A stretch of DNA of 64,000 bases, from positions 22,948,987 to 23,012,986 of the forward strand of contig NC_087073.1 of NCBI RefSeq assembly GCF_026151205.1, written 5' to 3'. Source of the DNA: Bolinopsis microptera. Lineage: Eukaryota > Ctenophora > Tentaculata > Lobata > Bolinopsidae. This document shows, piece after piece, positions 1,205 through 59,310 of this stretch. Below the pieces are notes generated by a model. That model was not told where the DNA came from, made no database searches, and worked only from the letters and a program-made list of their open reading frames with translations. The first letter of the stretch is position 1; each line of letters begins with the position of its first letter. The translations under genes were made by a program, and so were the position numbers.

Positions 1205-1247
<43 letters not shown>

Positions 1248-34620: not shown

Positions 34621-37600
34621 CTGAAATCAGCAATCCCTTTCAGCGCGTAGTTGACAATGTAAGATTAATTAATATGAGACATAGAATTATATTTTAATAT
34701 GATTTTAAAAAGAGTTGACAAAAGCACATGAATATAAACTCGATAATCGCTTACCTCGTCGTCTTCCTCCTCCTCCTCCTCCTCCTCCTCCTCCTCCTCG
34801 CTATCTAAATCATCGTCCTCTCCCTCTTCATCTAACTCGAAGTCTTCATCTGAATCTGGCTCTGCAGTACCTTCCCTATTTCATTATTTAGGTTTATTGA
34901 GCCAACATTCGGATAGGAGCAAAACAGGCAAAATTGTAAACAAAAATGATCGAGCGCGGGTAAAACTTGCGCGCTAAAATGGCGCGAAAATTAAAAAATC
35001 AATTTTGAGTAGACCTTTTCTAAAGTCACCAGAAGACGTTTCCCTGAAATGTGTATGCGATTTTGTATGCGATTTGCGCGCCGCACGTACGTTAAAATAA
35101 TTATATTTGTAGAATTTATGACGGTAACCCTTCAAAAGTCAAAATAAACTGCTCGTATATTTATAGACACTATGATATGAATAACTAAATAACACCTTGA
35201 ACCCAACTTGGAACCACATCCAAGGGCTGCACCGACCCCAGAAAAGCTATAATTCAAGTCAAAAATCTTTACTCGGCCCTGTATGTGATTTGTGTTCCGG
35301 GGTAGTGGACAGATGTTTTAGTGGTTGAATAGCTAGTACCTATCCCAAACCATCATAAAAACCAAGTTTTGTTCTCTCAACCCACTCAGGCCACTCCCAG
35401 GGGCCACACATAACCCAAAATAGCTGAAATCCAGGTCAAATCCCATACATAAAAATCAAGACTAAGAATCTTTACCCCCGTATGCGATTTATGTTCCGGG
35501 GTAGGTGGCCCATGTTTTAGTATAAACCACTCTCAAACCACTCAGGCCACTCCCAGGAGCCACGCCCATCCCAAAATAGCTGAAATCCAGCTGAAATCCC
35601 ATACAAATTCAGACTGAGAATCTTTACCCCCGTATGCGATTTATGTTCCGGGGTAGGTGGCCCATGTTTTAGTATAAAAATGGGTACTGCCTATCCCAAA
35701 CCATCATAAAAACGAAGTTTCAACCTCTCAAACCACTCAGGCCACTCCCAGGGGCCACGCCCATCACAAAATAGCTGAAATCCTGGTCAAATCCCATACA
35801 AATTCAGACTGAGAATCTTTACCCCCGTATGCGATTTATGTTCCGGGGTAGGTGGCCCATGTTCTAGTATAAAAATGGGTACAACCTATCCCAAACCATC
35901 ATAAAAACCAAGTTTCGACCTCTCAAACCACTCAGGCCACTCCCAGGAGCCACGCCCATCCCAAAATAGCTGAAATCCAGCTGAAATCCTAAACAAATTC
36001 AGACTGAGAATCTTTACCCCCGTATGCGATTTATGTTCCGGGGTAGGTGGCCCATGTTCTAGTATAAAAATGGGTACTGCCTATCCCAAACCATCATAAA
36101 AATCAAGTTTCGACCTCTCAACCCACTCAGGCCACTCCCAGGAGCCACGCCCATCCCAAAATTACTGAAATCCAGCTAAAATCCTGACTTTAAAATCTTT
36201 ACCCCCGTATGCGATTTATGTTCCAGGGTAGGTGGCCCATGTTTTACTATAAAAATGGGTACTACCTATCCCAAACCATCATAAAAACCAAGTTTCGACC
36301 TCTCAAACCACTCAGGCCACTCCCAGGGGCCACGCCCATCACAAAATAGCTGAAATCCTGGTCAAATCCCATACAAATTCAGACTGAGAATCTTTACCCC
36401 CGTATGCGATTTATGTTCCGGGGTAGGTGGCCCATGTTTTAGAATAAAAATGGGTACTACCTATCCCAAACCATCATAAAGACTAAGTTTCGACCTCTCA
36501 AACCACTCAGGCCACTCCCAGGAGCCACGCCCATCCCAAAATAGCTGAAATCCAGCTGAAATCCTAAACAAATTCAGACTGAGAATCTTTACCCCCGTAT
36601 GCGATTTATGTTCCGGGGTAGGTGGCTCATGTTCTAGTATAAAAATGGGTACTGCCTATCCCAAACCATCATAAAAATCAAGTTTCGACCTCTCAACCCA
36701 CTCAGGCCACTCCCAGGAGCCACGCCCATCCCAAAATTACTGAAATCCAGCTAAAATCCTGACTTTAAAATCTTTACCCCCGTATGCAATTTATGTTCCG
36801 GGGTAGGTGGCCCATATTTTGGTATAAAAATGGGTACAACCTATCCCAAACCATCATAAAAACCAAGTTTCGACCTCTCAAACCACTCAGGCCACTCCCA
36901 GGAGCCACGCCCATCCCAAAATAGCTGAAATCTAGCTGAAATCCCATACAAATTCAGACTGAGAATCTTTACCCCCGTATGCGATTTATGTTCCGGGGTA
37001 GGTGGCCCATGTTTTAGTATAAAAATGGGTACTACCTATCCCAAACCATCATAAAAACCAAGTTTCGACCTCTCAGACCACTCAGGCCACTTCCAGGGGC
37101 CACGCCCATCCCAAAATAGCTGAAATCCAGCTGAAATCCTAAACAAATTCAGACTGAGAATCTTTACCCCCGTATGCGATTTATGTTCCGGGGTAGGTGG
37201 CCCATGTTTTAGAATAAAAATGGGTACTACCTATCCCAATGATATGATGGTTTGGGATAGGCAGTACCCATTTTTATACTAAAACATGGGCCACCTACCC
37301 CGGAACATAAATCGCATACGGGGGTAAAGATTTTCAATCTTGATTTTACCAGGATTTCAGCTATTTTGGGATGGGCGTGGCCCCTGGGAGTGGCCTGAGT
37401 GGGTTGGGAGGTCGAAACTTGATTTTTATGATGGTTTGGGATAGGCAGTACCCATTTTATACTAAAACATGGGCCACCTACCCCGGAACATAAATCGCAT
37501 ACGGGGGTAAAGATTCTCAGTCTGGATTTGTATGGGATTTGACCTGGATTTCAGCTATTTTGGGATGGGCGTGGCCCCTGGGAGTGGCCTGAGTGGTTTG

Positions 37601-39228
37601 AGAGGTCGAAACTTGGTTTTTATGATGGTTTGGGATAGTCAGTACCCATTTTTATACTAAAACATGGCCCACCTACCCCGGAACATAAATCGCATACGGG
37701 GGTAAAGATTCTCAGTCTGGATTTGTATGGGATTTGACCTGGATTTCAGCTATTTTGGGATGGGCGTGGCCCCTGGGAGTGGCCTGAGTGGTTTGAGAGG
37801 TCGAAACTTGGTTTTTATGATGGTTTGGGATAGGCAGTACCCATTTTTATACTAAAACATGGGCCACCTACCCCGGAACATAAATCGCATACGGGGGTAA
37901 AGATTTTCAATCTTGATTTTACCAGGATTTCAGCTATTTTGGGATGGGCGTGGCCCCTGGGAGTGGCCTGAGTGGGTTGGGAGGTCGAAACTTGATTTTT
38001 ATGATGGTTTGGGACAGGTACTAACTATTTAAAACCCTAAACCTGTTCCAAATACCCCGGAACACAAATCGCATACAGGGGTGAAATCGCATACAAATCG
38101 CATACACAAATCAAGGAAACGTGCTCTCAAAGTCACGATATTGCCACGATATTGTCACAATATTGTCCACACCAGGAGATGTTTCCCCAAAATGTAAAGC
38201 AATGGTTTACTAAAATAATGCTTAATTTCATACAAAAAATAGTCCTCAAAAGGGAATGCAACGCAATTTGTCCTTTACAACTATCCTTTAACAGGTCAGA
38301 AAAAATAATGTTATTATCTTTTCTTTTATTTTTGCTACAATCACGCCACAACATTTGTAAAAACATAACCTAACATTGTTAGGACCTTATCAATTATTTG
38401 AAGAAATTTAAATGTGTTAAGTAAAGTTTTAATACCTGTCAATTCCATCAAGGAAGGTAAGTTGTGGAATCGCTGAAAATACTTTATCTCGATATTTTTC
38501 AACTTCAGCAATCGGACATTCGATCAAATCCAAACTTGACAGATTACTCAGCAATTTCTGAAAGATTTTATTACATTAAATTGTACAACCAAGTTTATAA
38601 AATGGATAGCTCTGAATCACAACTCAAACAAAGGTAACCGAGATAAAACACCACCAGCATTTGTTAAAAAGTTAACCCTAGTAGCAGTGTAAAGATAAAC
38701 AAACCAGTGGTTCCAGCGTAGCAACATCTTTAATCCTATTATTACAGATCTTGAGGGAGGTGAGGTTTGGGCAACTCTTCAAATACTCCAGATCCCCCGA
38801 CAACTTATTATCACTAACCTCCAACTGTAATATCAGTGAGATATATCAAACTGGTACTTTCAGAGACAACAATAAAATAACAGTTAGCACACCGGTGTCC
38901 GGGCAATATTTTATTATTTGGCGATTTCAACATAGGTAGGTTAGATCTCCAAAGTTAATTCCAGGTTAACTATTTTAGCACTGTCAATGTTTATTGTTGG
39001 CTTAATTAACTCACTATGGTCGTATAACATATAATATTCTGCGTTCTAATTTCTATTATAATTAAACGTTCCCCTACTACCTACCGATCTTAGTTTGGGG
39101 TAAGCAGGGAATCCTTTAAGAGAAGTGAGACCTATGTTGATCATGCTGAGAACCTCTAACTCCTCGTATTTATCTGTTAGTCCTGTTAGCGTGCTGGCTC
39201 TACAGTTATCTAGAAACAACTCCTTTAC
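34447..39228 (-). CDS. ANP32: ANP32-family acidic leucine-rich nuclear phosphoprotein, exons 2-6
   Basis: Five minus-strand exons (39228-39085, 38824-38705, 38557-38436, 34875-34755, 34620-34447) give one frame of about 226 codons ending in TGA. The product has the ANP32 layout: leucine-rich repeats (VKELFLDNC, EELEVLSMINIGLTSLKG, LEVSDNKLSGDLEYL, CPNLTSL), an LRR cap (KVFSAIPQLTFLDGID), then a low-complexity acidic tail with ten or more consecutive Glu and a terminal basic patch AAKRAKID that may be a nuclear signal. Only the ~17-residue exon 1 is missing, so the full protein would be near 245 residues, normal for the family. These proteins act in the nucleus in histone binding, phosphatase inhibition and mRNA export. 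Intron 1 acceptor DNA is multiplied ~283-fold; intron 4 holds a satellite. Confidence 0.93.
34755..34875 (-). CDS. ANP32: ANP32 exon 5: acidic tract
   Basis: The acceptor is GAAATAG and the donor GAG|GTAAGC. It encodes EGTAEPDSDEDFELDEEGED and a run of about ten Glu from a GAG trinucleotide repeat (34,766-34,799). The next AG, TACTGCAG, would break the frame, so the weaker upstream AG is chosen. Confidence 0.85.
35270..38095. repeat. 195 bp satellite with an orientation switch at 37,237
   Basis: Units contain ACCCCCGTATGCGATTTATG, GTTCCGGGGTAGGTGGCCCA and CACTCAGGCCACTCCCAGG. Around ten units run in + orientation, then from 37,237 about four run inverted. Unit lengths from 35,821 are 195, 185, 195, 195, 185, 195, 195, so 185 bp units recur every 575 bp as a three-unit higher-order repeat. 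The head-to-head junction (CCTATCCCAATGATATGATG) makes a long foldback of ~800 bp arms. All of it lies inside ANP32 intron 4. The opening ~200 bp and the last unit are more diverged. Confidence 0.93.
38436..38557 (-). CDS. ANP32: ANP32 exon 4: last LRRs and LRR cap
   Basis: The acceptor is TCTTTCAG and the donor ACAG|GTATTA. It encodes KLLSNLSSLDLIECPIAEVE, then KYRDKVFSAIPQLTFLDGID. The ending is the LRR C-terminal cap typical of ANP32. Confidence 0.93.
38705..38824 (-). CDS. ANP32: ANP32 exon 3: central LRRs
   Basis: The acceptor is ATTACAG and the donor ACTG|GTTTGT. It encodes LEVSDNKLSGDLEYLKSCPN, then LTSLKICNNRIKDVATLEPL, close to the conserved ANP32 segment with CPNLT and NxIKD. Confidence 0.93.
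39085..39228 (-). CDS. ANP32: ANP32 exon 2 (genuine copy)
   Basis: From CTGCAG|GTAAAG to TCG|GTAGGT it encodes VKELFLDNCRASTLTGLTD, then KYEELEVLSMINIGLTSLKG to PKLRS, 48 residues in phase 0 at both ends. The first 57 bp are the part copied in the 69 bp array; only this copy continues into KYEELE. Confidence 0.92.
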
Positions 39229-42200
39229 CTGCAGAGTATTATCTGTTAGTCCTGTTAGCGTGCTGGCTCTACAGTTATCTAGAAACAACTCCTTTACCTG
39301 CAGAGTATTATCTGTTAGTCCTGTTAGCGTGCTGGCTCTACAGTTATCTAGAAACAGCTCCTTTACCTGCAGAGTATTATCTGTTAGTCCTGTTAGCGTG
39401 CTGGCTCTACAGTTATCTAGAAACAACTCCTTTACCTGCAGAGTATTATCTGTTAGTCCTGTTAGCGTGCTGGCTCTACAGTTATCTAGAAACAACTCCT
39501 TTACCTGCAGAGTATTATCTGTTAGTCCTGTTAGCGTGCTGGCTCTACAGTTATCTAGAAACAACTCCTTTACCTGCAGAGTATTATCTGTTAGTCCTGT
39601 TAGCGTGCTGGCTCTACAGTTATCTAGAAACAGCTCCTTTACCTGCAGAGTATTATCTGTTAGTCCTGTTAGCGTGCTGGCTCTACAGTTGTCTAGAAAC
39701 AGCTCCTTTACCTGCAGAGTATTATCTGTTAGTCCTGTTAGCGTGCTGGCTCTACAGTTATCTAGAAACAACTCCTTTACCTGCAGAGTATTATCTGTTA
39801 GTCCTGTTAGCGTGCTGGCTCTACAGTTATCTAGAAACAGCTCCTTTACCTGCAGAGTATTATCTGTTAGTCCTGTTAGCGTGCTGGCTCTACAGTTATC
39901 TAGAAACAGCTCCTTTACCTGCAGAGTATTATCTGTTAGTCCTGTTAGCGTGCTGGCTCTACAGTTATCTAGAAACAGCTCCTTTACCTGCAGAGTATTA
40001 TCTGTTAGTCCTGTTAGCGTGCTGGCTCTACAGTTGTCTAGAAACAGCTCCTTTACCTGCAGAGTATTATCTGTTAGTCCTGTTAGCGTGCTGGCTCTAC
40101 AGTTATCTAGAAACAGCTCCTTTACCTGCAGAGTATTATCTGTTAGTCCTGTTAGCGTGCTGGCTCTACAGTTATCTAGAAACAGCTCCTTTACCTGCAG
40201 AGTATTATCTGTTAGTCCTGTTAGCGTGCTGGCTCTACAGTTGTCTAGAAACAGCTCCTTTACCTGCAGAGTATTTATCTGTTAGTCCTGTTAGCGTGCT
40301 GGCTCTACAGTTATCTAGAAACAACTCCTTTACCTGCAGAGTATTATCTGTTAGTCCTGTTAGCGTGCTGGCTCTACAGTTATCTAGAAACAGCTCCTTT
40401 ACCTGCAGAGTATTATCTGTTAGTCCTGTTAGCGTGCTGGCTCTACATTTATCTAGAAACAGCTCCTTTACCTGCAGAGTATTATCTGTTAGTCCTGTTA
40501 GCGTGCTGGCTCTACATTTATCTAGAAACAGCTCCTTTACCTGCAGAGTATTATCTGTTAGTCCTGTTAGCGTGCTGGCTCTACAGTTATCTAGAAACAG
40601 CTCCTTTACCTGCAGAGTATTATCTGTTAGTCCTGTTAGCGTGCTGGCTCTACATTTATCTAGAAACAGCTCCTTTACCTGCAGAGTATTATCTGTTAGT
40701 CCTGTTAGCGTGCTGGCTCTACAGTTATCTAGAAACAGCTCCTTTACCTGCAGAGTATTATCTGTAAGTCCTGTTAGCGTGCTGGCTCTACAGTTGTCTA
40801 GAAACAACTCCTTTACCTGCAGAGTATTATCTGTAAGTCCTGTTAGCGTGCTGGCTCTACAGTTATCTAGAAACAGCTCCTTTACCTGCAGAGTATTATC
40901 TGTTAGTCCTGTTAGCGTGCTGGCTCTACAGTTATCTAGAAACAGCTCCTTTACCTGCAGAGTATTATCTGTTAGTCCTGTTAGCGTGCTGGCTCTACAG
41001 TTATCTAGAAACAGCTCCTTTACCTGCAGAGTATTATCTGTTAGTCCTGTTAGCGTGCTGGCTCTACAGTTATCTAGAAACAGCTCCTTTACCTGCAGAG
41101 TATTATCTGTTAGTCCTGTTAGCGTGCTGGCTCTACAGTTATCTAGAAACAGCTCCTTTACCTGCAGAGTATTATCTGTTAGTCCTGTTAGCGTGCTGGC
41201 TCTACAGTTATCTAGAAACAGCTCCTTTACCTGCAGAGTATTATCTGTTAGTCCTGTTAGCGTGCTGGCTCTACAGTTATCTAGAAACAGCTCCTTTACC
41301 TGCAGAGTATTATCTGTTAGTCCTGTTAGCGTGCTGGCTCTACAGTTGTCTAGAAACAACTCCTTTACCTGCAGAGTATTATCTGTTAGTCCTGTTAGCG
41401 TGCTGGCTCTACAGTTATCTAGAAACAGCTCCTTTACCTGCAGAGTATTTATCTGTTAGTCCTGTTAGCGTGCTGGCTCTACAGTTGTCTAGAAACAACT
41501 CCTTTACCTGCAGAGTATTTATCTGTTAGTCCTGTTAGCGTGCTGGCTCTACAGTTGTCTAGAAACAACTCCTTTACCTGCAGAGTATTATCTGTTAGTC
41601 CTGTTAGCGTGCTGGCTCTACAGTTATCTAGAAACAGCTCCTTTACCTGCAGAGTATTATCTGTTAGTCCTGTTAGCGTGCTGGCTCTACAGTTATCTAG
41701 AAACAGCTCCTTTACCTGCAGAGTATTATCTGTTAGTCCTGTTAGCGTGCTGGCTCTACAGTTATCTAGAAACAGCTCCTTTACCTGCAGAGTATTATCT
41801 GTTAGTCCTGTTAGCGTGCTGGCTCTACAGTTGTCTAGAAACAACTCCTTTACCTGCAGAGTATTATCTGTTAGTCCTGTTAGCGTGCTGGCTCTACAGT
41901 TATCTAGAAACAGCTTCTTTACCTGCAGAGTATTTATCTGTTAGTCCTGTTAGCGTGCTGGCTCTACAGTTGTCTAGAAACAACTCCTTTACCTGCAGAG
42001 TATTATCTGTTAGTCCTGTTAGCGTGATGGCTCTACAGTTATCTAGAAACAGCTCCTTTACCTGCAGAGTATTATCTGTTAGTCCTGTTAGCGTGCTGGC
42101 TCTACAGTTGTCTAGAAACAACTCCTTTACCTGCAGAGTATTATCTGTTAGTCCTGTTAGCGTGCTGGCTCTACAGTTATCTAGAAACAGCTCCTTTACC

Positions 42201-45200
42201 TGCAGAGTATTATCTGTTAGTCCTGTTAGCGTGCTGGCTCTACAGTTGTCTAGAAACAACTCCTTTACCTGCAGAGTATTTATCTGTTAGTCCTGTTAGC
42301 GTGCTGGCTCTACAGTTATCTAGAAACAGCTCCTTTACCTGCAGAGTATTTATCTGTTAGTCCTGTTAGCGTGCTGGCTCTACAGTTATCTAGAAACAAC
42401 TCCTTCACCTGCAGAGTATTATCTGTTAGTCCTGTTAGCGTGCTGGCTCTACAGTTATCTAGAAACAGCTCCTTTACCTGCAGAGTATTATCTGTTAGTC
42501 CTGTTAGCGTGCTGGCTCTACATGTATCTAGAAACAGCTCCTTTACCTGCAGAGTATTATCTGTTAGTCCTGTTAGCGTGCTGGCTCTACAGTTATCTAG
42601 AAACAGCTCCTTTACCTGCAGAGTATTATCTGTTAGTCCTGTTAGCGTGCTGGCTCTACAGTTATCTAGAAACAGCTCCTTTACCTGCAGAGTATTATCT
42701 GTTAGTCCTGTTAGCGTGCTGGCTCTACAGTTGTCTAGAAACAACTCCTTTACCTGCAGAGTATTATCTGTTAGTCCTGTTAGCGTGCTGGCTCTACAGT
42801 TATCTAGAAACAGCTCCTTTACCTGCAGAGTATTATCTGTTAGTCCTGTTAGCGTGCTGGCTCTACAGTTATCTAGAAACAACTCCTTCACCTGCAGAGT
42901 ATTATCTGTTAGTCCTGTTAGCGTGCTGGCTCTACAGTTATCTAGAAACAGCTCCTTTACCTGCAGAGTATTATCTGTTAGTCCTGTTAGCGTGCTGGCT
43001 CTACAGTTGTCTAGAAACAGCTCCTTTACCTGCAGAGTATTATCTGTTAGTCCTGTTAGCGTGCTGGCTCTACAGTTATCTAGAAACAGCTCCTTTACCT
43101 GCAGAGTATTATCTGTTAGTCCTGTTAGCGTGCTGGCTCTACAGTTATCTAGAAACAGCTCCTTTACCTGCAGAGTATTATCTGTTAGTCCTGTTAGCGT
43201 GCTGGCTCTACAGTTATCTAGAAACAGCTCCTTTACCTGCAGAGTATTATCTGTTAGTCCTGTTAGCGTGCTGGCTCTACAGTTGTCTAGAAACAGCTCC
43301 TTTACCTGCAGAGTATTATCTGTTAGTCCTGTTAGCGTGCTGGCTCTACAGTTATCTAGAAACAGCTCCTTTACCTGCAGAGTATTATCTGTTAGTCCTG
43401 TTAGCGTGCTGGCTCTACAGTTATCTAGAAACAGCTCCTTTACCTGCAGAGTATTATCTGTTAGTCCTGTTAGCGTGCTGGCTCTACAGTTATCTAGAAA
43501 CAGCTCCTTTACCTGCAGAGTATTATCTGTTAGTCCTGTTAGCGTGCTGGCTCTACAGTTGTCTAGAAACAGCTCCTTTACCTGCAGAGTATTATCTGTT
43601 AGTCCTGTTAGCGTGCTGGCTCTACAGTTATCTAGAAACAGCTCCTTTACCTGCAGAGTATTATCTGTTAGTCCTGTTAGCGTGCTGGCTCTACAGTTGT
43701 CTAGAAACAGCTCCTTTACCTGCAGAGTATTATCTGTTAGTCCTGTTAGCGTGCTGGCTCTACAGTTGTCTAGAAACAGCTCCTTTACCTGCAGAGTATT
43801 ATCTGTTAGTCCTGTTAGCGTGCTGGCTCTACAGTTATCTAGAAACAGCTCCTTTACCTGCAGAGTATTATCTGTTAGTCCTGTTAGCGTGCTGGCTCTA
43901 CAGTTATCTAGAAACAGCTCCTTTACCTGCAGAGTATTATCTGTTAGTCCTGTTAGCGTGCTGGCTCTACAGTTATCTAGAAACAGCTCCTTTACCTGCA
44001 GAGTATTATCTGTTAGTCCTGTTAGCGTGCTGGCTCTACAGTTATCTAGAAACAGCTCCTTTACCTGCAGAGTATTATCTGTTAGTCCTGTTAGCGTGCT
44101 GGCTCTACAGTTATCTAGAAACAGCTCCTTTACCTGCAGAGTATTATCTGTTAGTCCTGTTAGCGTGCTGGCTCTACAGTTGTCTAGAAACAGCTCCTTT
44201 ACCTGCAGAGTATTATCTGTTAGTCCTGTTAGCGTGCTGGCTCTACAGTTATCTAGAAACAGCTCCTTTACCTGCAGAGTATTATCTGTTAGTCCTGTTA
44301 GCGTGCTGGCTCTACAGTTGTCTAGAAACAGCTCCTTTACCTGCAGAGTATTATCTGTTAGTCCTGTTAGCGTGCTGGCTCTACAGTTATCTAGAAACAA
44401 CTCCTTTACCTGCAGAGTATTATCTGTTAGTCCTGTTAGCGTGCTGGCTCTACAGTTATCTAGAAACAGCTCCTTTACCTGCAGAGTATTATCTGTTAGT
44501 CCTGTTAGCGTGCTGGCTCTACATTTATCTAGAAACAGCTCCTTTACCTGCAGAGTATTATCTGTTAGTCCTGTTAGCGTGCTGGCTCTACAGTTGTCTA
44601 GAAACAGCTCCTTTACCTGCAGAGTATTATCTGTTAGTCCTGTTAGCGTGCTGGCTCTACAGTTATCTAGAAACAGCTCCTTTACCTGCAGAGTATTATC
44701 TGTTAGTCCTGTTAGCGTGCTGGCTCTACAGTTATCTAGAAACAGCTCCTTTACCTGCAGAGTATTATCTGTTAGTCCTGTTAGCGTGCTGGCTCTACAG
44801 TTATCTAGAAACAGCTCCTTTACCTGCAGAGTATTATCTGTTAGTCCTGTTAGCGTGCTGGCTCTACAGTTATCTAGAAACAGCTCCTTTACCTGCAGAG
44901 TATTATCTGTTAGTCCTGTTAGCGTGCTGGCTCTACAGTTATCTAGAAACAGCTCCTTTACCTGCAGAGTATTATCTGTTAGTCCTGTTAGCGTGCTGGC
45001 TCTACATTTATCTAGAAACAGCTCCTTTACCTGCAGAGTATTATCTGTTAGTCCTGTTAGCGTGCTGGCTCTACAGTTATCTAGAAACAGCTCCTTTACC
45101 TGCAGAGTATTATCTGTTAGTCCTGTTAGCGTGCTGGCTCTACATTTATCTAGAAACAGCTCCTTTACCTGCAGAGTATTATCTGTTAGTCCTGTTAGCG

Positions 45201-48200
45201 TGCTGGCTCTACAGTTATCTAGAAACAGCTCCTTTACCTGCAGAGTATTATCTGTTAGTCCTGTTAGCGTGCTGGCTCTACAGTTATCTAGAAACAGCTC
45301 CTTTACCTGCAGAGTATTATCTGTTAGTCCTGTTAGCGTGCTGGCTCTACAGTTATCTAGAAACAGCTCCTTTACCTGCAGAGTATTATCTGTTAGTCCT
45401 GTTAGCGTGCTGGCTCTACATTTATCTAGAAACAGCTCCTTTACCTGCAGAGTATTATCTGTTAGTCCTGTTAGCGTGCTGGCTCTACAGTTATCTAGAA
45501 ACAGCTCCTTTACCTGCAGAGTATTATCTGTTAGTCCTGTTAGCGTGCTGGCTCTACAGTTATCTAGAAACAGCTCCTTTACCTGCAGAGTATTATCTGT
45601 TAGTCCTGTTAGCGTGCTGGCTCTACAGTTATCTAGAAACAGCTCCTTTACCTGCAGAGTATTATCTGTTAGTCCTGTTAGCGTGCTGGCTCTACAGTTG
45701 TCTAGAAACAGCTCCTTTACCTGCAGAGTATTATCTGTTAGTCCTGTTAGCGTGCTGGCTCTACAGTTGTCTAGAAACAGCTCTTTTACCTGCAGAGTAT
45801 TATCTGTTAGTCCTGTTAGCGTGCTGGCTCTACATTTATCTAGAAACAACTCCTTTACCTGCAGAGTATTATCTGTTAGTCCTGTTAGCGTGCTGGCTCT
45901 ACAGTTGTCTAGAAACAGCTCCTTTACCTGCAGAGTATTATCTGTTAGTCCTGTTAGCGTGCTGGCTCTACAGTTATCTAGAAACAACTCCTTTACCTGC
46001 AGAGTATTATCTGTTAGTCCTGTTAGCGTGCTGGCTCTACAGTTGTCTAGAAACAGCTCCTTTACCTGCAGAGTATTATCTGTTAGTCCTGTTAGCGTGC
46101 TGGCTCTACAGTTATCTAGAAACAGCTCCTTTACCTGCAGAGTATTATCTGTTAGTCCTGTTAGCGTGCTGGCTCTACAGTTATCTAGAAACAGCTCCTT
46201 TACCTGCAGAGTATTATCTGTTAGTCCTGTTAGCGTGCTGGCTCTACAGTTGTCTAGAAACAGCTCCTTTACCTGCAGAGTATTATCTGTTAGTCCTGTT
46301 AGCGTGCTGGCTCTACAGTTATCTAGAAACAACTCCTTTACCTGCAGAGTATTATCTGTTAGTCCTGTTAGCGTGCTGGCTCTACAGTTATCTAGAAACA
46401 GCTCCTTTACCTGCAGAGTATTATCTGTTAGTCCTGTTAGCGTGCTGGCTCTACAGTTGTCTAGAAACAGCTCCTTTACCTGCAGAGTATTATCTGTTAG
46501 TCCTGTTAGCGTGCTGGCTCTACAGTTATCTAGAAACAGCTCCTTTACCTGCAGAGTATTATCTGTTAGTCCTGTTAGCGTGCTGGCTCTACAGTTATCT
46601 AGAAACAGCTCCTTTACCTGCAGAGTATTATCTGTTAGTCCTGTTAGCGTGCTGGCTCTACAGTTGTCTAGAAACAGCTCCTTTACCTGCAGAGTATTAT
46701 CTGTTAGTCCTGTTAGCGTGCTGGCTCTACAGTTATCTAGAAACAACTCCTTTACCTGCAGAGTATTATCTGTTAGTCCTGTTAGCGTGCTGGCTCTACA
46801 GTTATCTAGAAACAGCTCCTTTACCTGCAGAGTGTTATCTGTTAGTCCTGTTAGCGTGCTGGCTCTACAGTTATCTAGAAACAGCTCCTTTACCTGCAGA
46901 GTATTATCTGTTAGTCCTGTTAGCGTGCTGGCTCTACAGTTGTCTAGAAACAGCTCCTTTACCTGCAGAGTATTATCTGTTAGTCCTGTTAGCGTGCTGG
47001 CTCTACAGTTATCTAGAAACAGCTCCTTTACCTGCAGAGTATTATCTGTTAGTCCTGTTAGCGTGCTGGCTCTACAGTTATCTAGAAACAGCTCCTTTAC
47101 CTGCAGAGTATTATCTGTTAGTCCTGTTAGCGTGCTGGCTCTACAGTTATCTAGAAACAGCTCCTTTACCTGCAGAGTGTTATCTGTTAGTCCTGTTAGC
47201 GTGCTGGCTCTACAGTTATCTAGAAACAGCTCTTTTACCTGCAGAGTATTATCTGTTAGTCCTGTTAGCGTGCTGGCTCTACATTTATCTAGAAACAGCT
47301 CCTTTACCTGCAGAGTATTATCTGTTAGTCCTGTTAGCGTGCTGGCTCTACATTTATCTAGAAACAGCTCCTTTACCTGCAGAGTATTATCTGTTAGTCC
47401 TGTTAGCGTGCTGGCTCTACAGTTGTCTAGAAACAACTCCTTTACCTGCAGAGTATTATCTGTTAGTCCTGTTAGCGTGCTGGCTCTACAGTTATCTAGA
47501 AACAGCTCCTTTACCTACAGAGTGTTATCTGTTAGTCCTGTTAGCGTGCTGGCTCTACAGTTATCTAGAAACAGCTCCTTTACCTGCAGAGTATTATCTG
47601 TTAGTCCTGTTAGCGTGCTGGCTCTACAGTTATCTAGAAACAGCTCCTTTACCTGCAGAGTATTATCTGTTAGTCCTGTTAGCGTGCTGGCTCTACAGTT
47701 ATCTAGAAACAGCTCCTTTACCTGCAGAGTATTATCTGTTAGTCCTGTTAGCGTGCTGGCTCTACATTTATCTAGAAACAGCTCCTTTACCTGCAGAGTA
47801 TTATCTGTTAGTCCTGTTAGCGTGCTGGCTCTACATTTATCTAGAAACAGCTCCTTTACCTGCAGAGTATTATCTGTTAGTCCTGTTAGCGTGCTGGCTC
47901 TACATTTATCTAGAAACAGCTCCTTTACCTGCAGAGTATTATCTGTTAGTCCTGTTAGCGTGCTGGCTCTACAGTTATCTAGAAACAGCTCCTTTACCTG
48001 CAGAGTATTATCTGTTAGTCCTGTTAGCGTGCTGGCTCTACAGTTATCTAGAAACAGCTCCTTTACCTGCAGAGTATTATCTGTTAGTCCTGTTAGCGTG
48101 CTGGCTCTACAGTTATCTAGAAACAGCTCCTTTACCTGCAGAGTATTATCTGTTAGTCCTGTTAGCGTGCTGGCTCTACAGTTATCTAGAAACAGCTCCT

Positions 48201-51200
48201 TTACCTGCAGAGTATTATCTGTTAGTCCTGTTAGCGTGCTGGCTCTACAGTTATCTAGAAACAGCTCCTTTACCTGCAGAGTATTATCTGTTAGTCCTGT
48301 TAGCGTGCTGGCTCTACAGTTATCTAGAAACAGCTCCTTTACCTGCAGAGTATTATCTGTTAGTCCTGTTAGCGTGCTGGCTCTACAGTTGTCTAGAAAC
48401 AGCTCCTTTACCTGCAGAGTATTATCTGTTAGTCCTGTTAGCGTGCTGGCTCTACAGTTATCTAGAAACAACTCCTTTACCTGCAGAGTATTATCTGTTA
48501 GTCCTGTTAGCGTGCTGGCTCTACAGTTGTCTAGAAACAGCTCCTTTACCTGCAGAGTATTATCTGTTAGTCCTGTTAGCGTGCTGGCTCTACAGTTATC
48601 TAGAAACAGCTCCTTTACCTGCAGAGTATTATCTGTTAGTCCTGTTAGCGTGCTGGCTCTACAGTTATCTAGAAACAGCTCCTTTACCTGCAGAGTATTA
48701 TCTGTTAGTCCTGTTAGCGTGCTGGCTCTACAGTTATCTAGAAACAGCTCCTTTACCTGCAGAGTATTATCTGTTAGTCCTGTTAGCGTGCTGGCTCTAC
48801 AGTTGTCTAGAAACAGCTCCTTTACCTGCAGAGTATTATCTGTTAGTCCTGTTAGCGTGCTGGCTCTACAGTTGTCTAGAAACAGCTCTTTTACCTGCAG
48901 AGTATTATCTGTTAGTCCTGTTAGCGTGCTGGCTCTACATTTATCTAGAAACAGCTCCTTTACCTGCAGAGTATTATCTGTTAGTCCTGTTAGCGTGCTG
49001 GCTCTACATTTATCTAGAAACAGCTCCTTTACCTGCAGAGTATTATCTGTTAGTCCTGTTAGCGTGCTGGCTCTACAGTTGTCTAGAAACAGCTCCTTTA
49101 CCTGCAGAGTATTATCTGTTAGTCCTGTTAGCGTGCTGGCTCTACAGTTGTCTAGAAACAGCTCCTTTACCTGCAGAGTATTATCTGTTAGTCCTGTTAG
49201 CGTGCTGGCTCTACAGTTGTCTAGAAACAGCTCCTTTACCTGCAGAGTATTATCTGTTAGTCCTGTTAGCGTGCTGGCTCTACAGTTGTCTAGAAACAAC
49301 TCCTTTACCTGCAGAGTATTATCTGTTAGTCCTGTTAGCGTGCTGGCTCTACAGTTGTCTAGAAACAGCTCCTTTACCTGCAGAGTATTATCTGTTAGTC
49401 CTGTTAGCGTGCTGGCTCTACAGTTATCTAGAAACAGCTCCTTTACCTGCAGAGTATTATCTGTTAGTCCTGTTAGCGTGCTGGCTCTACAGTTATCTAG
49501 AAACAGCTCCTTTACCTGCAGAGTATTATCTGTTAGTCCTGTTAGCGTGCTGGCTCTACAGTTATCTAGAAACAGCTCCTTTACCTGCAGAGTATTATCT
49601 GTTAGTCCTGTTAGCGTGCTGGCTCTACAGTTATCTAGAAACAGCTCCTTTACCTGCAGAGTATTATCTGTTAGTCCTGTTAGCGTGCTGGCTCTACAGT
49701 TATCTAGAAACAGCTCCTTTACCTGCAGAGTATTATCTGTTAGTCCTGTTAGCGTGCTGGCTCTACAGTTATCTAGAAACAGCTCCTTTACCTGCAGAGT
49801 ATTATCTGTTAGTCCTGTTAGCGTGCTGGCTCTACATTTATCTAGAAACAGCTCCTTTACCTGCAGAGTATTATCTGTTAGTCCTGTTAGCGTGCTGGCT
49901 CTACATTTATCTAGAAACAGCTCCTTTACCTGCAGAGTATTATCTGTTAGTCCTGTTAGCGTGCTGGCTCTACAGTTATCTAGAAACAGCTCCTTTACCT
50001 GCAGAGTATTATCTGTTAGTCCTGTTAGCGTGCTGGCTCTACAGTTATCTAGAAACAGCTCCTTTACCTGCAGAGTATTATCTGTTAGTCCTGTTAGCGT
50101 GCTGGCTCTACAGTTATCTAGAAACAGCTCCTTTACCTGCAGAGTATTATCTGTTAGTCCTGTTAGCGTGCTGGCTCTACATTTATCTAGAAACAGCTCC
50201 TTTACCTGCAGAGTATTATCTGTTAGTCCTGTTAGCGTGCTGGCTCTACAGTTGTCTAGAAACAGCTCCTTTACCTGCAGAGTATTATCTGTTAGTCCTG
50301 TTAGCGTGCTGGCTCTACAGTTATCTAGAAACAGCTCCTTTACCTGCAGAGTATTATCTGTTAGTCCTGTTAGCGTGCTGGCTCTACAGTTGTCTAGAAA
50401 CAGCTCCTTTACCTGCAGAGTATTATCTGTTAGTCCTGTTAGCGTGCTGGCTCTACAGTTATCTAGAAACAGCTCCTTTACCTGCAGAGTATTATCTGTT
50501 AGTCCTGTTAGCGTGCTGGCTCTACAGTTATCTAGAAACAGCTCCTTTACCTGCAGAGTATTATCTGTTAGTCCTGTTAGCGTGCTGGCTCTACATTTAT
50601 CTAGAAACAGCTCCTTTACCTGCAGAGTATTATCTGTTAGTCCTGTTAGCGTGCTGGCTCTACATTTATCTAGAAACAGCTCCTTTACCTGCAGAGTATT
50701 ATCTGTTAGTCCTGTTAGCGTGCTGGCTCTACATTTATCTAGAAACAGCTCCTTTACCTGCAGAGTATTATCTGTTAGTCCTGTTAGCGTGCTGGCTCTA
50801 CATTTATCTAGAAACAGCTCCTTTACCTGCAGAGTATTATCTGTTAGTCCTGTTAGCGTGCTGGCTCTACAGTTATCTAGAAACAGCTCCTTTACCTGCA
50901 GAGTATTATCTGTTAGTCCTGTTAGCGTGCTGGCTCTACATTTATCTAGAAACAGCTCCTTTACCTGCAGAGTATTATCTGTTAGTCCTGTTAGCGTGCT
51001 GGCTCTACATTTATCTAGAAACAGCTCCTTTACCTGCAGAGTATTATCTGTTAGTCCTGTTAGCGTGCTGGCTCTACAGTTATCTAGAAACAGCTCCTTT
51101 ACCTGCAGAGTATTATCTGTTAGTCCTGTTAGCGTGCTGGCTCTACATTTATCTAGAAACAGCTCCTTTACCTGCAGAGTATTATCTGTTAGTCCTGTTA

Positions 51201-54200
51201 GCGTGCTGGCTCTACAGTTGTCTAGAAACAGCTCCTTTACCTGCAGAGTATTATCTGTTAGTCCTGTTAGCGTGCTGGCTCTACAGTTATCTAGAAACAG
51301 CTCCTTTACCTGCAGAGTATTATCTGTTAGTCCTGTTAGCGTGCTGGCTCTACAGTTGTCTAGAAACAGCTCCTTTACCTGCAGAGTATTATCTGTTAGT
51401 CCTGTTAGCGTGCTGGCTCTACAGTTATCTAGAAACAGCTCCTTTACCTGCAGAGTATTATCTGTTAGTCCTGTTAGCGTGCTGGCTCTACAGTTGTCTA
51501 GAAACAGCTCCTTTACCTGCAGAGTATTATCTGTTAGTCCTGTTAGCGTGCTGGCTCTACATTTATCTAGAAACAGCTCCTTTACCTGCAGAGTATTATC
51601 TGTTAGTCCTGTTAGCGTGCTGGCTCTACATTTATCTAGAAACAGCTCCTTTACCTGCAGAGTATTATCTGTTAGTCCTGTTAGCGTGCTGGCTCTACAT
51701 TTATCTAGAAACAGCTCCTTTACCTGCAGAGTATTATCTGTTAGTCCTGTTAGCGTGCTGGCTCTACATTTATCTAGAAACAGCTCCTTTACCTGCAGAG
51801 TATTATCTGTTAGTCCTGTTAGCGTGCTGGCTCTACAGTTGTCTAGAAACAGCTCCTTTACCTGCAGAGTATTATCTGTTAGTCCTGTTAGCGTGCTGGC
51901 TCTACAGTTGTCTAGAAACAACTCCTTTACCTGCAGAGTATTATCTGTTAGTCCTGTTAGCGTGCTGGCTCTACAGTTATCTAGAAACAGCTCCTTTACC
52001 TGCAGAGTATTATCTGTTAGTCCTGTTAGCGTGCTGGCTCTACATTTATCTAGAAACAGCTCCTTTACCTGCAGAGTATTATCTGTTAGTCCTGTTAGCG
52101 TGCTGGCTCTGCAGTTATCTAGAAACAGCTCCTTTACCTGCAGAGTATTATCTGTTAGTCCTGTTAGCGTGCTGGCTCTACATTTATCTAGAAACAGCTC
52201 CTTTACCTGCAGAGTATTATCTGTTAGTCCTGTTAGCGTGCTGGCTCTACAGTTGTCTAGAAACAGCTCCTTTACCTGCAGAGTATTATCTGTTAGTCCT
52301 GTTAGCGTGCTGGCTCTACAGTTATCTAGAAACAACTCCTTTACCTGCAGAGTATTATCTGTTAGTCCTGTTAGCGTGCTGGCTCTACAGTTGTCTAGAA
52401 ACAGCTCCTTTATCTGCAGAGTATTATCTGTTAGTCCTGTTAGCGTGCTGGCTCTACAGTTGTCTAGAAACAGCTCCTTTACCTGCAGAGTATTATCTGT
52501 TAGTCCTGTTAGCGTGCTGGCTCTACAGTTATCTAGAAACAGCTCCTTTACCTGCAGAGTATTATCTGTTAGTCCTGTTAGCGTGCTGGCTCTACAGTTA
52601 TCTAGAAACAGCTCCTTTACCTGCAGAGTATTATCTGTTAGTCCTGTTAGCGTGCTGGCTCTACAGTTATCTAGAAACAACTCCTTTACCTGCAGAGTAT
52701 TATCTGTTAGTCCTGTTAGCGTGCTGGCTCTACAGTTATCTAGAAACAGCTCCTTTACCTGCAGAGTATTATCTGTTAGTCCTGTTAGCGTGCTGGCTCT
52801 ACAGTTATCTAGAAACAGCTCCTTTACCTGCAGAGTATTATCTGTTAGTCCTGTTAGCGTGCTGGCTCTACAGTTGTCTAGAAACAGCTCCTTTACCTGC
52901 AGAGTATTATCTGTTAGTCCTGTTAGCGTGCTGGCTCTACAGTTATCTAGAAACAGCTCCTTTACCTGCAGAGTATTATCTGTTAGTCCTGTTAGCGTGC
53001 TGGCTCTACAGTTATCTAGAAACAACTCCTTTACCTGCAGAGTATTATCTGTTAGTCCTGTTAGCGTGCTGGCTCTACAGTTGTCTAGAAACAGCTCCTT
53101 TACCTGCAGAGTATTATCTGTTAGTCCTGTTAGCGTGCTGGCTCTACATGTATCTAGAAACAGCTCCTTTACCTGCAGAGTATTATCTGTTAGTCCTGTT
53201 AGCGTGCTGGCTCTACAGTTGTCTAGAAACAGCTCCTTTACCTGCAGAGTATTATCTGTTAGTCCTGTTAGCGTGCTGGCTCTACAGTTGTCTAGAAACA
53301 GCTCCTTTACCTGCAGAGTATTATCTGTTAGTCCTGTTAGCGTGCTGGCTCTACAGTTATCTAGAAACAACTCCTTTACCTGCAGAGTATTATCTGTTAG
53401 TCCTGTTAGCGTGCTGGCTCTACAGTTGTCTAGAAACAGCTCCTTTACCTGCAGAGTATTATCTGTTAGTCCTGTTAGCGTGCTGGCTCTACAGTTGTCT
53501 AGAAACAGCTCCTTTACCTGCAGAGTATTATCTGTTAGTCCTGTTAGCGTGCTGGCTCTACAGTTATCTAGAAACAACTCCTTTACCTGCAGAGTATTAT
53601 CTGTTAGTCCTGTTAGCGTGCTGGCTCTACATTTATCTAGAAACAGCTCCTTTACCTGCAGAGTATTATCTGTTAGTCCTGTTAGCGTGCTGGCTCTACA
53701 GTTATCTAGAAACAACTCCTTTACCTGCAGAGTATTATCTGTTAGTCCTGTTAGCGTGCTGGCTCTACAGTTATCTAGAAACAGCTCCTTTACCTGCAGA
53801 GTATTATCTGTTAGTCCTGTTAGCGTGCTGGCTCTACATTTATCTAGAAACAGCTCCTTTACCTGCAGAGTATTATCTGTTAGTCCTGTTAGCGTGCTGG
53901 CTCTACAGTTATCTAGAAACAGCTCCTTTACCTGCAGAGTATTATCTGTTAGTCCTGTTAGCGTGCTGGCTCTACAGTTATCTAGAAACAGCTCCTTTAC
54001 CTGCAGAGTATTATCTGTTAGTCCTGTTAGCGTGCTGGCTCTACAGTTATCTAGAAACAGCTCCTTTACCTGCAGAGTATTATCTGTTAGTCCTGTTAGC
54101 GTGCTGGCTCTACATTTATCTAGAAACAGCTCCTTTACCTGCAGAGTATTATCTGTTAGTCCTGTTAGCGTGCTGGCTCTACAGTTATCTAGAAACAGCT

Positions 54201-57200
54201 CCTTTACCTGCAGAGTATTATCTGTTAGTCCTGTTAGCGTGCTGGCTCTACAGTTATCTAGAAACAGCTCCTTTACCTGCAGAGTATTATCTGTTAGTCC
54301 TGTTAGCGTGCTGGCTCTACAGTTGTCTAGAAACAGCTCCTTTACCTGCAGAGTATTATCTGTTAGTCCTGTTAGCGTGCTGGCTCTACAGTTGTCTAGA
54401 AACAACTCCTTTACCTGCAGAGTATTATCTGTTAGTCCTGTTAGCGTGCTGGCTCTACAGTTATCTAGAAACAGCTCCTTTACCTGCAGAGTATTATCTG
54501 TTAGTCCTGTTAGCGTGCTGGCTCTACAGTTATCTAGAAACAGCTCCTTTACCTGCAGAGTATTATCTGTTAGTCCTGTTAGCGTGCTGGCTCTACAGTT
54601 ATCTAGAAACAGCTCCTTTACCTGCAGAGTATTATCTGTTAGTCCTGTTAGCGTGCTGGCTCTACAGTTATCTAGAAACAACTCCTTTACCTGCAGAGTA
54701 TTATCTGTTAGTCCTGTTAGCGTGCTGGCTCTACAGTTATCTAGAAACAACTCCTTTACCTGCAGAGTATTATCTGTTAGTCCTGTTAGCGTGCTGGCTC
54801 TACATTTATCTAGAAACAGCTCCTTTACCTGCAGAGTATTATCTGTTAGTCCTGTTAGCGTGCTGGCTCTACATTTATCTAGAAACAGCTCCTTTACCTG
54901 CAGAGTATTATCTGTTAGTCCTGTTAGCGTGCTGGCTCTACATTTATCTAGAAACAGCTCCTTTACCTGCAGAGTATTATCTGTTAGTCCTGTTAGCGTG
55001 CTGGCTCTACAGTTGTCTAGAAACAGCTCCTTTACCTGCAGAGTATTATCTGTTAGTCCTGTTAGCGTGCTGGCTCTACAGTTATCTAGAAACAGCTCCT
55101 TTACCTGCAGAGTATTATCTGTTAGTCCTGTTAGCGTGCTGGCTCTACAGTTATCTAGAAACAGCTCCTTTACCTGCAGAGTATTATCTGTTAGTCCTGT
55201 TAGCGTGCTGGCTCTACAGTTGTTTAGAAACAACTCCTTTACCTGCAGAGTATTATATGTTAGTCCTGTTAGCGTGCTGGCTCTACAGTTATCTAGAAAC
55301 AGCTCCTTTACCTGCAGAGTATTATCTGTTAGTCCTGTTAGCGTGCTGGCTCTACAGTTGTCTAGAAACAGCTCCTTTACCTGCAGAGTATTATCTGTTA
55401 GTCCTGTTAGCGTGCTGGCTCTACAGTTATCTAGAAACAGCTCCTTTACCTGCAGAGTATTATCTGTTAGTCCTGTTAGCGTGCTGGCTCTACAGTTATC
55501 TAGAAACAGCTCCTTTACCTGCAGAGTATTATCTGTTAGTCCTGTTAGCGTGCTGGCTCTACAGTTATCTAGAAACAGCTCCTTTACCTGCAGAGTATTA
55601 TCTGTTAGTCCTGTTAGCGTGCTGGCTCTACAGTTATCTAGAAACAGCTCCTTTACCTGCAGAGTATTATCTGTTAGTCCTGTTAGCGTGCTGGCTCTAC
55701 AGTTATCTAGAAACAGCTCCTTTACCTGCAGAGTATTATCTGTTAGTCCTGTTAGCGTGCTGGCTCTACAGTTATCTAGAAACAGCTCCTTTACCTGCAG
55801 AGTATTATCTGTTAGTCCTGTTAGCGTGCTGGCTCTACAGTTGTCTAGAAACAGCTCCTTTACCTGCAGAGTATTATCTGTTAGTCCTGTTAGCGTGCTG
55901 GCTCTACAGTTATCTAGAAACAGCTCCTTTACCTGCAGAGTATTATCTGTTAGTCCTGTTAGCGTGCTGGCTCTACAGTTATCTAGAAACAGCTCCTTTA
56001 CCTGCAGAGTATTATCTGTTAGTCCTGTTAGCGTGCTGGCTCTACAGTTGTCTAGAAACAGCTCCTTTACCTGCAGAGTATTATCTGTTAGTCCTGTTAG
56101 CGTGCTGGCTCTACAGTTATCTAGAAACAGCTCCTTTACCTGCAGAGTATTTATCTGTTAGTCCTGTTAGCGTGCTGGCTCTACATTTATCTAGAAACAG
56201 CTCCTTTACCTGCAGAGTATTATCTGTTAGTCCTGTTAGCGTGCTGGCTCTACAGTTATCTAGAAACAACTCCTTTACCTGCAGAGTATTATCTGTTAGT
56301 CCTGTTAGCGTGCTGGCTCTACAGTTATCTAGAAACAGCTCCTTTACCTGCAGAGTATTATCTGTTAGTCCTGTTAGCGTGCTGGCTCTACAGTTGTCTA
56401 GAAACAGCTCCTTTACCTGCAGAGTATTATCTGTTAGTCCTGTTAGCGTGCTGGCTCTACAGTTATCTAGAAACAGCTCCTTTACCTGCAGAGTATTATC
56501 TGTTAGTCCTGTTAGCGTGCTGGCTCTACAGTTATCTAGAAACAGCTCCTTTACCTGCAGAGTATTATCTGTTAGTCCTGTTAGCGTGCTGGCTCTACAG
56601 TTATCTAGAAACAGCTCCTTTACCTGCAGAGTATTATCTGTTAGTCCTGTTAGCGTGCTGGCTCTACAGTTATCTAGAAACAACTCCTTTACCTGCAGAG
56701 TATTATCTGTTAGTCCTGTTAGCGTGCTGGCTCTACAGTTATCTAGAAACAGCTCCTTTACCCAGGTCAATATCATTACATATTTCGCATATTAATATAC
56801 GACATATTTCGAAGGAAAACCACGACATAACAAAATTATTGTTAAAATTTGTTACAAATTAATTTAATTTCAGAAATAGTTGATTGCAGAATTCCTTTGA
56901 AAAAAATTTTTTTCGAAAAATTTTCTTGAAAAAATTTTGCGAATATTTTGATATTTTCATGACATCCGAAATCATGACATCCGAAATCTTGACATCATGT
57001 CATGATTTACAAATATCTGAGAAAGTTCACGCATATTTTTACCTGTATTTTACAGGCAAAACTTGACATGAAAAACGTCCCCGCATATTTGATAAGATGA
57101 GCGCATATTTGACATGGATCTAAATATCTGACGGGGGATATCATATAAAAAATATCCTTGTGTTTGAAAAATTATATCAAAAAAGTTAAGAATTTTTTAA

Positions 57201-59310
57201 TAAATTTTTCTAGGACTCGCCTGTAGCAGGCTTTGTCCCCCTGGATCGGGCTCTGCCAATTTGGATCATTGTGGGGCCCAAAAATGCCCCATCGGGTGAT
57301 AAAAACCATGACATATTTCACCCAGATATAATAATATACGACATATTTTTAATGATATTGACCTGGGCTCCTTTACCTGCAGAGTATTATCTGTTAGTCC
57401 TGTTAGCGTGCTGGCTCTACAGTTATCTAGAAACAGCTCCTTTACCTGCAGAGTATTATCTGTTAGTCCTGTTAGCGTGCTGGCTCTACAGTTGTCTAGA
57501 AACAACTCCTTTACCTGCAGAGTATTATCTGTTAGTCCTGTTAGCGTGCTGGCTCTACAGTTGTCTAGAAACAGCTCCTTTACCTGCAGAGTATTATCTG
57601 TTAGTCCTGTTAGCGTGCTGGCTCTACAGTTATCTAGAAACAGCTCCTTTACCTGCAGAGTATTATCTGTTAGTCCTGTTAGCGTGCTGGCTCTACAGTT
57701 ATCTAGAAACAGCTCCTTTACCTGCAGAGTATTATCTGTTAGTCCTGTTAGCGTGCTGGCTCTACAGTTATCTAGAAACAGCTCCTTTACCTGCAGAGTA
57801 TTATCTGTTAGTCCTGTTAGCGTGCTGGCTCTACAGTTATCTAGAAACAGCTCCTTTACCTGCAGAGTATTATCTGTTAGTCCTGTTAGCGTGCTGGCTC
57901 TACAGTTATCTAGAAACAGCTCCTTTACCTGCAGAGTATTATCTGTTAGTCCTGTTAGCGTGCTGGCTCTACAGTTATCTAGAAACAGCTCCTTTACCTG
58001 CAGAGTATTATCTGTTAGTCCTGTTAGCGTGCTGGCTCTACATTTATCTAGAAACAGCTCCTTTACCTGCAGAGTATTATCTGTTAGTCCTGTTAGCGTG
58101 CTGGCTCTACATTTATCTAGAAACAACTCCTTTACCTGCAGAGTATTATCTGTTAGTCCTGTTAGCGTGCTGGCTCTACAGTTATCTAGAAACAACTCCT
58201 TTACCTGCAGAGTATTATCTGTTAGTCCTGTTAGCGTGCTGGCTCTACAGTTATCTAGAAACAGCTCCTTTACCTGCAGAGTATTATCTGTTAGTCCTGT
58301 TAGCGTGCTGGCTCTACATTTATCTAGAAACAGCTCCTTTACCTGCAGAGTATTATCTGTTAGTCCTGTTAGCGTGCTGGCTCTACAGTTATCTAGAAAC
58401 AGCTCCTTTACCTGCAGAGTATTATCTGTTAGTCCTGTTAGCGTGCTGGCTCTACAGTTATCTAGAAACAACTCCTTTACCTGCAGAGTATTATCTGTTA
58501 GTCCTGTTAGCGTGCTGGCTCTACAGTTATCTAGAAACAGCTCCTTTACCTGCAGAGTATTATCTGTTAGTCCTGTTAGCGTGCTGGCTCTACAGTTATC
58601 TAGAAACAGCTCCTTTACCTGCAGAGTATTATCTGTTAGTCCTGTTAGCGTGCTGGCTCTACAGTTATCTAGAAACAGCTCCTTTACCTGCAGAGTATTA
58701 TCCTGTTAGCGTGCTGGCTCTACAGTTATCTAGAAACAGCTCCTTTACCTGCAGAGTGTTATCTGTTAGTCCTGTTAGCGTGCTGGCTCTACAGTTATCT
58801 AGAAACAACTCCTTTACCTGCAGAGTATTATCTGTTAGTCCTGTTAGCGTGCTGGCTCTACAGTTGTCTAGAAACAGCTCCTTTACCTGCAGAGTATTAT
58901 CTGTTAGTCCTGTTAGCGTGCTGGCTCTACAGTTATCTAGAAACAGCTCCTTTACCTGCAGAGTATTATCTGTTAGTCCTGTTAGCGTGCTGGCTCTACA
59001 GTTATCTAGAAACAGCTCCTTTACCTGCAGAGTATTATCTGTTAGTCCTGTTAGCGTGCTGGCTCTACAGTTATCTAGAAACAGCTCCTTTACCTGCAGA
59101 GTATTATCTGTTAGTCCTGTTAGCGTGCTGGCTCTACAGTTGTCTAGAAACAGCTCCTTTACCTGCAGAGTGTTATCTGTTAGTCCTGTTAGCGTGCTGG
59201 CTCTACAGTTATCTAGAAACAACTCCTTTACCTGCAGAGTATTATCTGTTAGTCCTGTTAGCGTGCTGGCTCTACAGTTATCTAGAAACAGCTCCTTTAC
59301 CTGCAGAGTA
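39171..59310 (-). repeat. 69 bp array, ~283 copies, derived from the ANP32 intron 1/exon 2 junction
   Basis: On the minus strand each unit is AATACTCTGCAG (12 bp of intron end) plus 57 bp of exon 2 coding VKELFLDNCRASTLTGLTD; the joint reads NTLQ, so the frame stays open through units of 23 residues. Seven units are 70 bp (near 40,272, 41,449, 41,519, 41,933, 42,281, 42,350 and 56,151). One unit near 58,700 lacks 8 bp, and a 607 bp element interrupts the array at 56,761. The longest run without a length change is about 200 units (42,350-56,151). One unit has a stop (TAG at 47,515-47,517). Very long plus-strand frames across it are by-products. At the far end (59,311) the array joins unique sequence ending AACATACTCTGCAG, the presumed original intron 1 end. 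Confidence 0.95.
56761..57367. mobile_element. 607 bp non-autonomous DNA transposon, hAT-like
   Basis: It has perfect 18 bp terminal inverted repeats, CCCAGGTCAATATCATTA at the left and its reverse complement at the right, flanked by an 8 bp direct duplication CTCCTTTA (56,753-56,760 and 57,368-57,375) taken from one 69 bp unit. An 8 bp target duplication is characteristic of hAT elements. The interior is AT-rich with no transposase frame. The terminal bases are not a textbook hAT CAGxG, so the superfamily is tentative. Confidence 0.85.

Follow-up and report, generated by a model that had tools for sequence, protein, structure and literature searches.

Intron 1 of the ANP32 gene of the ctenophore Bolinopsis microptera contains an exon boundary that has been duplicated in tandem and expanded to 20 kb. 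The gene lies on the minus strand of a stretch of 64,000 nucleotides (NC_087073.1, positions 22,948,987 to 23,012,986; hereafter the window), to which all coordinates refer unless stated otherwise. Each copy of the 69-bp repeat would bring its own acceptor with it, and 283 candidate 3′ splice sites face the single donor of exon 1. The ANP32 RNA has to be spliced past hundreds of splice sites that are nearly the same; judged from the DNA, the array is most likely spliced out together with intron 1.

Anatomy and Origin of the Array

Tandem Repeats Finder (TRF) places the 69-bp array at 39170-59311. With each exon-2 start on the minus strand taken as a boundary, it resolves into 282 closed units between exon 1 and the real exon 2 (39229-59300). 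The great majority are 69 nt long (273 units); seven measure 70 nt, one 61 nt and one 684 nt, the last being a unit split by a 607-bp miniature inverted-repeat transposable element (MITE). In each unit, 59 nt from the start of exon 2 come first, and the final 10 nt of intron 1, TACTCTGCAG, complete it. The native 3′ end of the intron, which carries the same decamer and is the source of every unit end, stands upstream of the first unit (59301-59310, minus strand).

The splice-like motifs are distributed with great regularity. GT opens 281 of the 282 units, GTAAAG opens 276, and CAG directly precedes 281. ACTAAC is present in 279 units, with the branch A at 17 nt from the end of the unit, and a second CTAAC lies 26 nt before that end. 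All 282 units end in AG and 281 of them in CTGCAG. The preliminary description of this DNA had attributed these motifs to every unit; they are indeed present in nearly all, but the complete set is found in 271/282. Among the exceptions are a unit that ends in CTGTAG and thereby carries an in-frame stop (47515-47583) and one that starts with ATAAAG and has no GT (52345-52413), both on the minus strand.

The MITE (56761-57367, minus strand) has perfect terminal inverted repeats of 18 bp and is flanked by the 8-bp target duplication TAAAGGAG at 57368-57375 and 56753-56760; from the size of this duplication we take the element to be hAT-like. Elsewhere in the genome, 19 near-full copies are at least 573 bases long and 92-99% identical, and there are further partial or more diverged ones. 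The units fall into 28 distinct types in mixed order along the array, and no varied block of 10 or more units occurs twice in array order. Genome-wide, the unit junction CAGATAATACTCTGCAGGTAAAG occurs 271 times, 262 of them in the window array and nine in a second copy described below, and nowhere else.

The origin of the motifs is readily apparent from their position in the gene: GTAAAG represents the Val-Lys codons, ACTAAC lies within Gly-Leu-Thr-Asp codons, and CTGCAG belongs to the native acceptor. In other words, exon 2 codons supply the "donor" and "branch site" of the unit, while its acceptor is the native one. The tetranucleotide ATAC is common to the end of intron 1 and to exon 2, the two occurrences being 70 bp apart. 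The array would have arisen by tandem duplication of the segment in which intron 1 ends and exon 2 begins, most simply between these two tetranucleotides, with subsequent growth to about 280 copies. A duplication of this kind yields exactly the 70-nt form of the unit. The seven 70-nt units are spread over five variant backgrounds, and the 69-nt form corresponds to the 70-nt form minus one A, which suggests that the 70-nt unit may be the founder. In that case the initial duplication would have shifted the frame, and the gene would have had to splice past it from the outset. Minisatellites abound in these surroundings, and in the present one an exon boundary came by chance to be included.

Gene Model of ANP32

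The exon model was built from homology and splice sites, and all of its exons lie on the minus strand. Exon 1 (coding part, 63 nt, 60172-60234, MSNLSMEARIELETRDLKPKE) ends in the donor GAG|GTTTGT. The real exon 2 (144 nt, 39085-39228) is the last, open copy of the array unit and ends in TCG|GTAGGT. It is followed by exon 3 (120 nt, 38705-38824), exon 4 (122 nt, 38436-38557), the acidic exon 5 (121 nt, 34755-34875) and exon 6 (174 nt, 34447-34620), which encodes the acidic tail, KRAKID and the stop. Intron 1 spans 20,943 nt when the last acceptor is used (39229-60171) and 871 nt when the first one is; the remaining four inferred introns, computed from the exon ends, measure 134-3560 nt.

All six exons are open, and once joined they give an open reading frame of 247 aa with an acidic tail. 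Residues 1-150 match solved ANP32A-type chains (E = 4.7e-45), and the protein matches leucine-rich repeat (LRR) families in Pfam. The gene thus combines the LRR domain with the acidic exons 5 and 6, the two features by which an ANP32 is recognized. This match and the unit anatomy bear out the earlier assignment of the gene to ANP32 on the minus strand, with exon 2 as the source of the repeat. A protein search of the species' own genome (264.65 Mb, 232 contigs) returned no second complete ANP32 among the matches listed. Outside two places on C2, at least three ANP32 protein matches, at 27-32% identity, are found among the matches listed, and within that scope ANP32 appears to be single in the genome. 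It is probably expressed normally. Intron 4 contains a repeat of its own, namely 195-bp tandem repeats at 35374-38082 arranged in two blocks of opposite orientation.

Reading Frame Across the Array

Exon 1 was joined in one step to each of the 283 acceptors and the product was read through exons 2-6; 16 joins remain open. The readable acceptors are exon 2's own and those of the 15 units just before it, the most 3′ ones, which are open and in frame with exon 2 (39229-40263, minus strand). Beyond these 15 units the frame is broken by the 70- and 61-nt units, the stop and the MITE. The claim that any whole number of units could be removed in frame is therefore wrong when applied to the entire array, while the companion claim, that removal of all units leaves a normal exon 2, is right. 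An array read as one coding repeat domain was likewise rejected, in view of the broken frame and the lack of an LRR match.

Splice Sites Compared with Introns of the Same Genome

As a yardstick, four conserved proteins were aligned to their genes in the same genome with a splice-aware procedure that required only GT...AG. The resulting reference set comprises 35 introns from four genes, VCP, EEF2 and HSP90 among them, on which the score models were built. Two doubtful ends (the last VCP intron and a 275-nt HSP90 intron) were kept in all counts, and one further HSP90-like region was left out of the alignment as too divergent.

The reference introns measure 107-4113 nt, with a median of 245 nt. 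At 69 nt the unit is shorter than all 35 of them and than the four other ANP32 introns (minimum 134 nt), and so lies below the intron lengths seen in this species. The unit donor scores 4.87 bits, above 4/35 reference donors, and GTAAAG lacks the G at +5 that is present in 29/35; the 9-mer CAG|GTAAAG is nevertheless identical to the inferred donor of EEF2 intron 1 (1/35). The donors of exons 1 and 5 each lie above 30/35, that of exon 2 (8.64 bits) above 22/35 and that of exon 3 above 17/35. On the acceptor side, the unit scores 7.02 (above 9/35), exon 4 scores 8.46 (above 15/35) and the native first acceptor scores 9.95 (above 25/35). An earlier model, based on 20 introns, placed the unit donor above 3/20 and the unit acceptor above 5/20; under it, the scores of the unit sites are equalled or exceeded by about 10% of the GTs and 8% of the AGs in the rest of the window. 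The AG|GT juxtaposition, to which the preliminary description had drawn attention, does exist at 281/282 units, but GT directly after AG also opens 13/35 ordinary exons.

The array itself is far beyond chance, whereas AG|GT within the unit is unremarkable and the full motif set is mildly remarkable. When the unit was shuffled 20,000 times with its dinucleotides preserved, AGGT appeared on either strand in 49.6% of the sequences, AGGT preceded by CTAAC at a distance of 12-45 nt in 4.9%, and [AC]AGGT[AG]A with CTAAC in 0.44%, a figure that flatters the unit because the pattern was written post hoc to fit it. Against the view that AGGT comes cheaply, none of the six consensus units of the other window arrays contains it on either strand.

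The 273 units of 69 nt contain 15 kinds of single-base variant, seven synonymous, seven non-synonymous and one stop, and the synonymous excess is not clear (7/15, p = 0.06 for all kinds; 6/10, p = 0.18 for transitions only). Variant kinds are not depleted in the 18 of 69 columns that form the splice motifs (5/15, p = 0.83), so there is no sign of constraint, both tests being weak because the array is highly uniform. Together with the length and the donor score, this gives no support to the proposal that each unit is a working minimal intron.

Splicing Past the Array

Exon 1 is probably, though by no means certainly, joined directly or near-directly to the last acceptors, and the array would in effect lengthen intron 1. 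In most productive mRNA, exon 1 would be linked to the last acceptor or to one of the few before it. Exon definition is an established principle of splicing, and the last acceptors would be favored because only there does a strong donor (GTAGGT) lie within normal exon distance, 144 nt for the last one. The weak GTAAAG "donors" would then be codons carried along with exon 2. The real exon 2 itself opens with an identical AG|GTAAAG and has to be retained, which means that this donor need not be used. The choice of acceptor is put forward here from the sequence.

Several observations weigh against this assignment. The native acceptor is the first to be met, at 871 nt from exon 1, and has a higher score than the later units; during transcription, exon 1 could be joined to it well before the last acceptor has been made, in which case later splicing inside the array would be needed. 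Furthermore, the ANP32 exon 4 donor scores 3.98 (above 3/35), below the unit donor at 4.87, and the exon 3 acceptor scores 4.33 (above 5/35), below the unit acceptor at 7.02. Taking into account these weak sites in the gene itself, the weakness of the unit is no proof of disuse.

The same observations lend some weight to recursive splicing, a possible though doubtful route in which exon 1 joins an early unit and unit blocks are removed stepwise until the stronger donor of the real exon 2 ends the process. The first and best-scoring acceptor, an exon-4 donor below that of the unit and the identity with the EEF2 donor are all in keeping with it, as are AG|GT at almost every unit start and the CTAAC motifs 17 and 26 nt upstream of the later acceptors. 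Exon 1 joined to any unit would re-create the donor GAG|GTAAAG, and two or more units (138 nt and up) fit within the normal intron range of 107-4113 nt. On the other hand, single units are shorter than any reference intron, the unit donor outscores only 4/35 and lacks the common +5 G, it is no stronger than that of the next unit and weaker than that of the real exon 2, comparable GTs are frequent elsewhere in the window, and the motif columns lack constraint. Recursion is easiest to envisage for blocks of at least two units. It is rather unlikely that the satellite, 20 kb of exon-derived sequence, is removed in full by serial recursive splicing over such blocks, with each step re-creating AG|GTAAAG and exon 2 stopping the series. 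If this were true, the ratchet points of the gene would number in the hundreds and be interchangeable, and the satellite would do no harm because splice signals come with every copy.

It is improbable that the array cripples ANP32, with most transcripts using unproductive acceptors and being degraded and the allele being hypomorphic or null. If the 283 acceptors, 16 of them readable in one step, were chosen uniformly, about 6% of the RNA would be productive. Against this reading, each of the six exons is open, the gene appears single, and no array-free copy was seen, the only second trace being a partial copy with the same last units beside a scaffold gap. Very improbable, in turn, is the retention of units as coding repeats, in which mRNAs with several 23-aa repeats would give rise to ANP32 variants. 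The 15 units nearest exon 2 are indeed open and keep its frame, and a single-sequence AlphaFold2 model of five units plus 141/144 nt of exon 2 forms a regular strand solenoid of modest confidence (mean pLDDT 68.5, pTM 0.65); yet no LRR family is matched at E <= 1 by a 398-aa stretch of units and exon 2, the synonymous changes show no clear excess, and the frame breaks beyond those units. An assembly artefact, with the array absent from the organism, is scarcely credible: long uniform arrays can be mis-sized and the duplicate partial copy ends at a 100-N gap, but the mixed order of 28 unit types with no repeated varied block of 10 or more, the single MITE insertion with its target duplication, and a second contig end that runs into this array and whose last units are almost the same all argue otherwise. 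The exact copy number of the array is not secured, the figure being that of the assembly sequence.

Whichever acceptor is chosen, the locus constitutes a natural experiment in splice-site choice: in a conserved gene that appears to be single, one donor is set against 283 acceptors that hardly differ and are spread over 20 kb. The ANP32 RNA would measure whether acceptor choice is first-come, governed by exon definition, or recursive.

Comparison with Known Systems

The kind of mechanism is already known; the scale is extreme. In the potato RdRp gene, a tandem duplication of an intron-exon boundary is described as a source of intron signals. As in ANP32, the acceptor was inherited and the donor was a cryptic exonic site, but that case involves one duplication and RNA-Seq reads for the new intron, whereas ANP32 has about 282 copies known from DNA alone (as outlined in PMC4974935). 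In the fission yeast genes SPOG_01682 and SOCG_00815, gained introns are made of tandem exon-derived repeats (PMC3629103, PMC4974935). Splice sites there lie in each repeat unit, with introns across four and two repeats in the account of PMC4974935. The units are 24 nt long and exon only according to PMC3629103, in contrast to the hundreds of 69-nt units with an inherited acceptor found here. The repeat sites are given as AGGC in PMC3629103 and as AGGT in PMC4974935, and one of the two cases is said to need further study (PMC3629103).

The AGGT duplication model of Rogers and Hellsten (ATP2A1) is similar in that tandem AGGT segments formally create GT...AG introns; it differs in that the source is exonic and that intron creation was reproduced experimentally in ATP2A2, as summarized in PMC4974935. 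Ratchet points offer a formal parallel, since the AG|GT juxtaposition is present and a 69-nt unit would equal a short recursive exon. Their donors are described as generally stronger than that of the following exon, although donor strength does not explain every case (both points as presented in PMC8605326). The ANP32 unit donor departs from this pattern, being weak, equal to that of the next unit and below the exon 2 donor; moreover, its AG|GT derives from a coding exon start and no motif constraint is seen.

No report of an array of this size, and no publication combining ANP32, a minisatellite and an intron, was found in listings from the openly licensed literature; the papers listed there on repeat expansion and recursive splicing, judged by title and abstract opening, were likewise of no help. 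The present locus indicates that boundary duplication, a known source of new introns, can grow this far while the coding exons stay open.

Second Partial Copy and Repeat-Rich Setting

The second ANP32 copy lies at C2:22445132-22445879 and contains about 11 unit starts. It belongs to a partial duplicate of the ANP32 array and its 3′ flank beside a 100-N gap (L009 4132-4986; G000:C2:22445132-22445986). The 3′ flank is 99.8% identical to the window over 4134 aligned bases, and further out the identity is only 91.5% over 1597 aligned bases. Three variable positions agree in 10 of the 11 last units, the eleventh having an indel. A separate working ANP32 gene at this locus was rejected: the copy is partial, its exon 3 has one extra base relative to the window, and its array reaches the 100-N gap before any exon 1. 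Most simply, the copy would be a haplotig or duplicated contig end, that is, a false assembly duplication; a recent real duplication is possible. In either case, a second contig also reached the array. With window positions 26500-28000 as a query for the second copy, the matches listed were the window itself, nearby repeats and dispersed repeats.

The surroundings are rich in tandem repeats, which make up a fraction of 0.498 of the window by TRF, compared with 0.35 and 0.72 in two stretches at the second copy and 0 in the VCP and EEF2 regions. The 15 kb from the window to the contig end gave fractions of 0.00 and 0.09. A TTAGGG array, the only telomere motif tried, is absent at the contig end, and a telomeric position is not supported.

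Several features elsewhere in the window were also recorded. An open frame of 158 aa at 62264-62740 resembles, by eye and with no search made, the end of a retroelement reverse transcriptase. A 23-bp array of 53 copies at 14468-15689 (consensus CAGGGTGAGTACTTGTTGAGTAG) has a plus-strand unit with a donor-like GTGAGT and TAG, and a 31-bp unit is repeated in 103 copies with 99% matches at 6366-9561 (TRF). Further arrays occupy 4876-5228, 10640-12714 and 12830-13269. Positions 1-3600 contain degenerate repeats of about 28-35 bp, together with a 41-base poly-C at 1206-1246.

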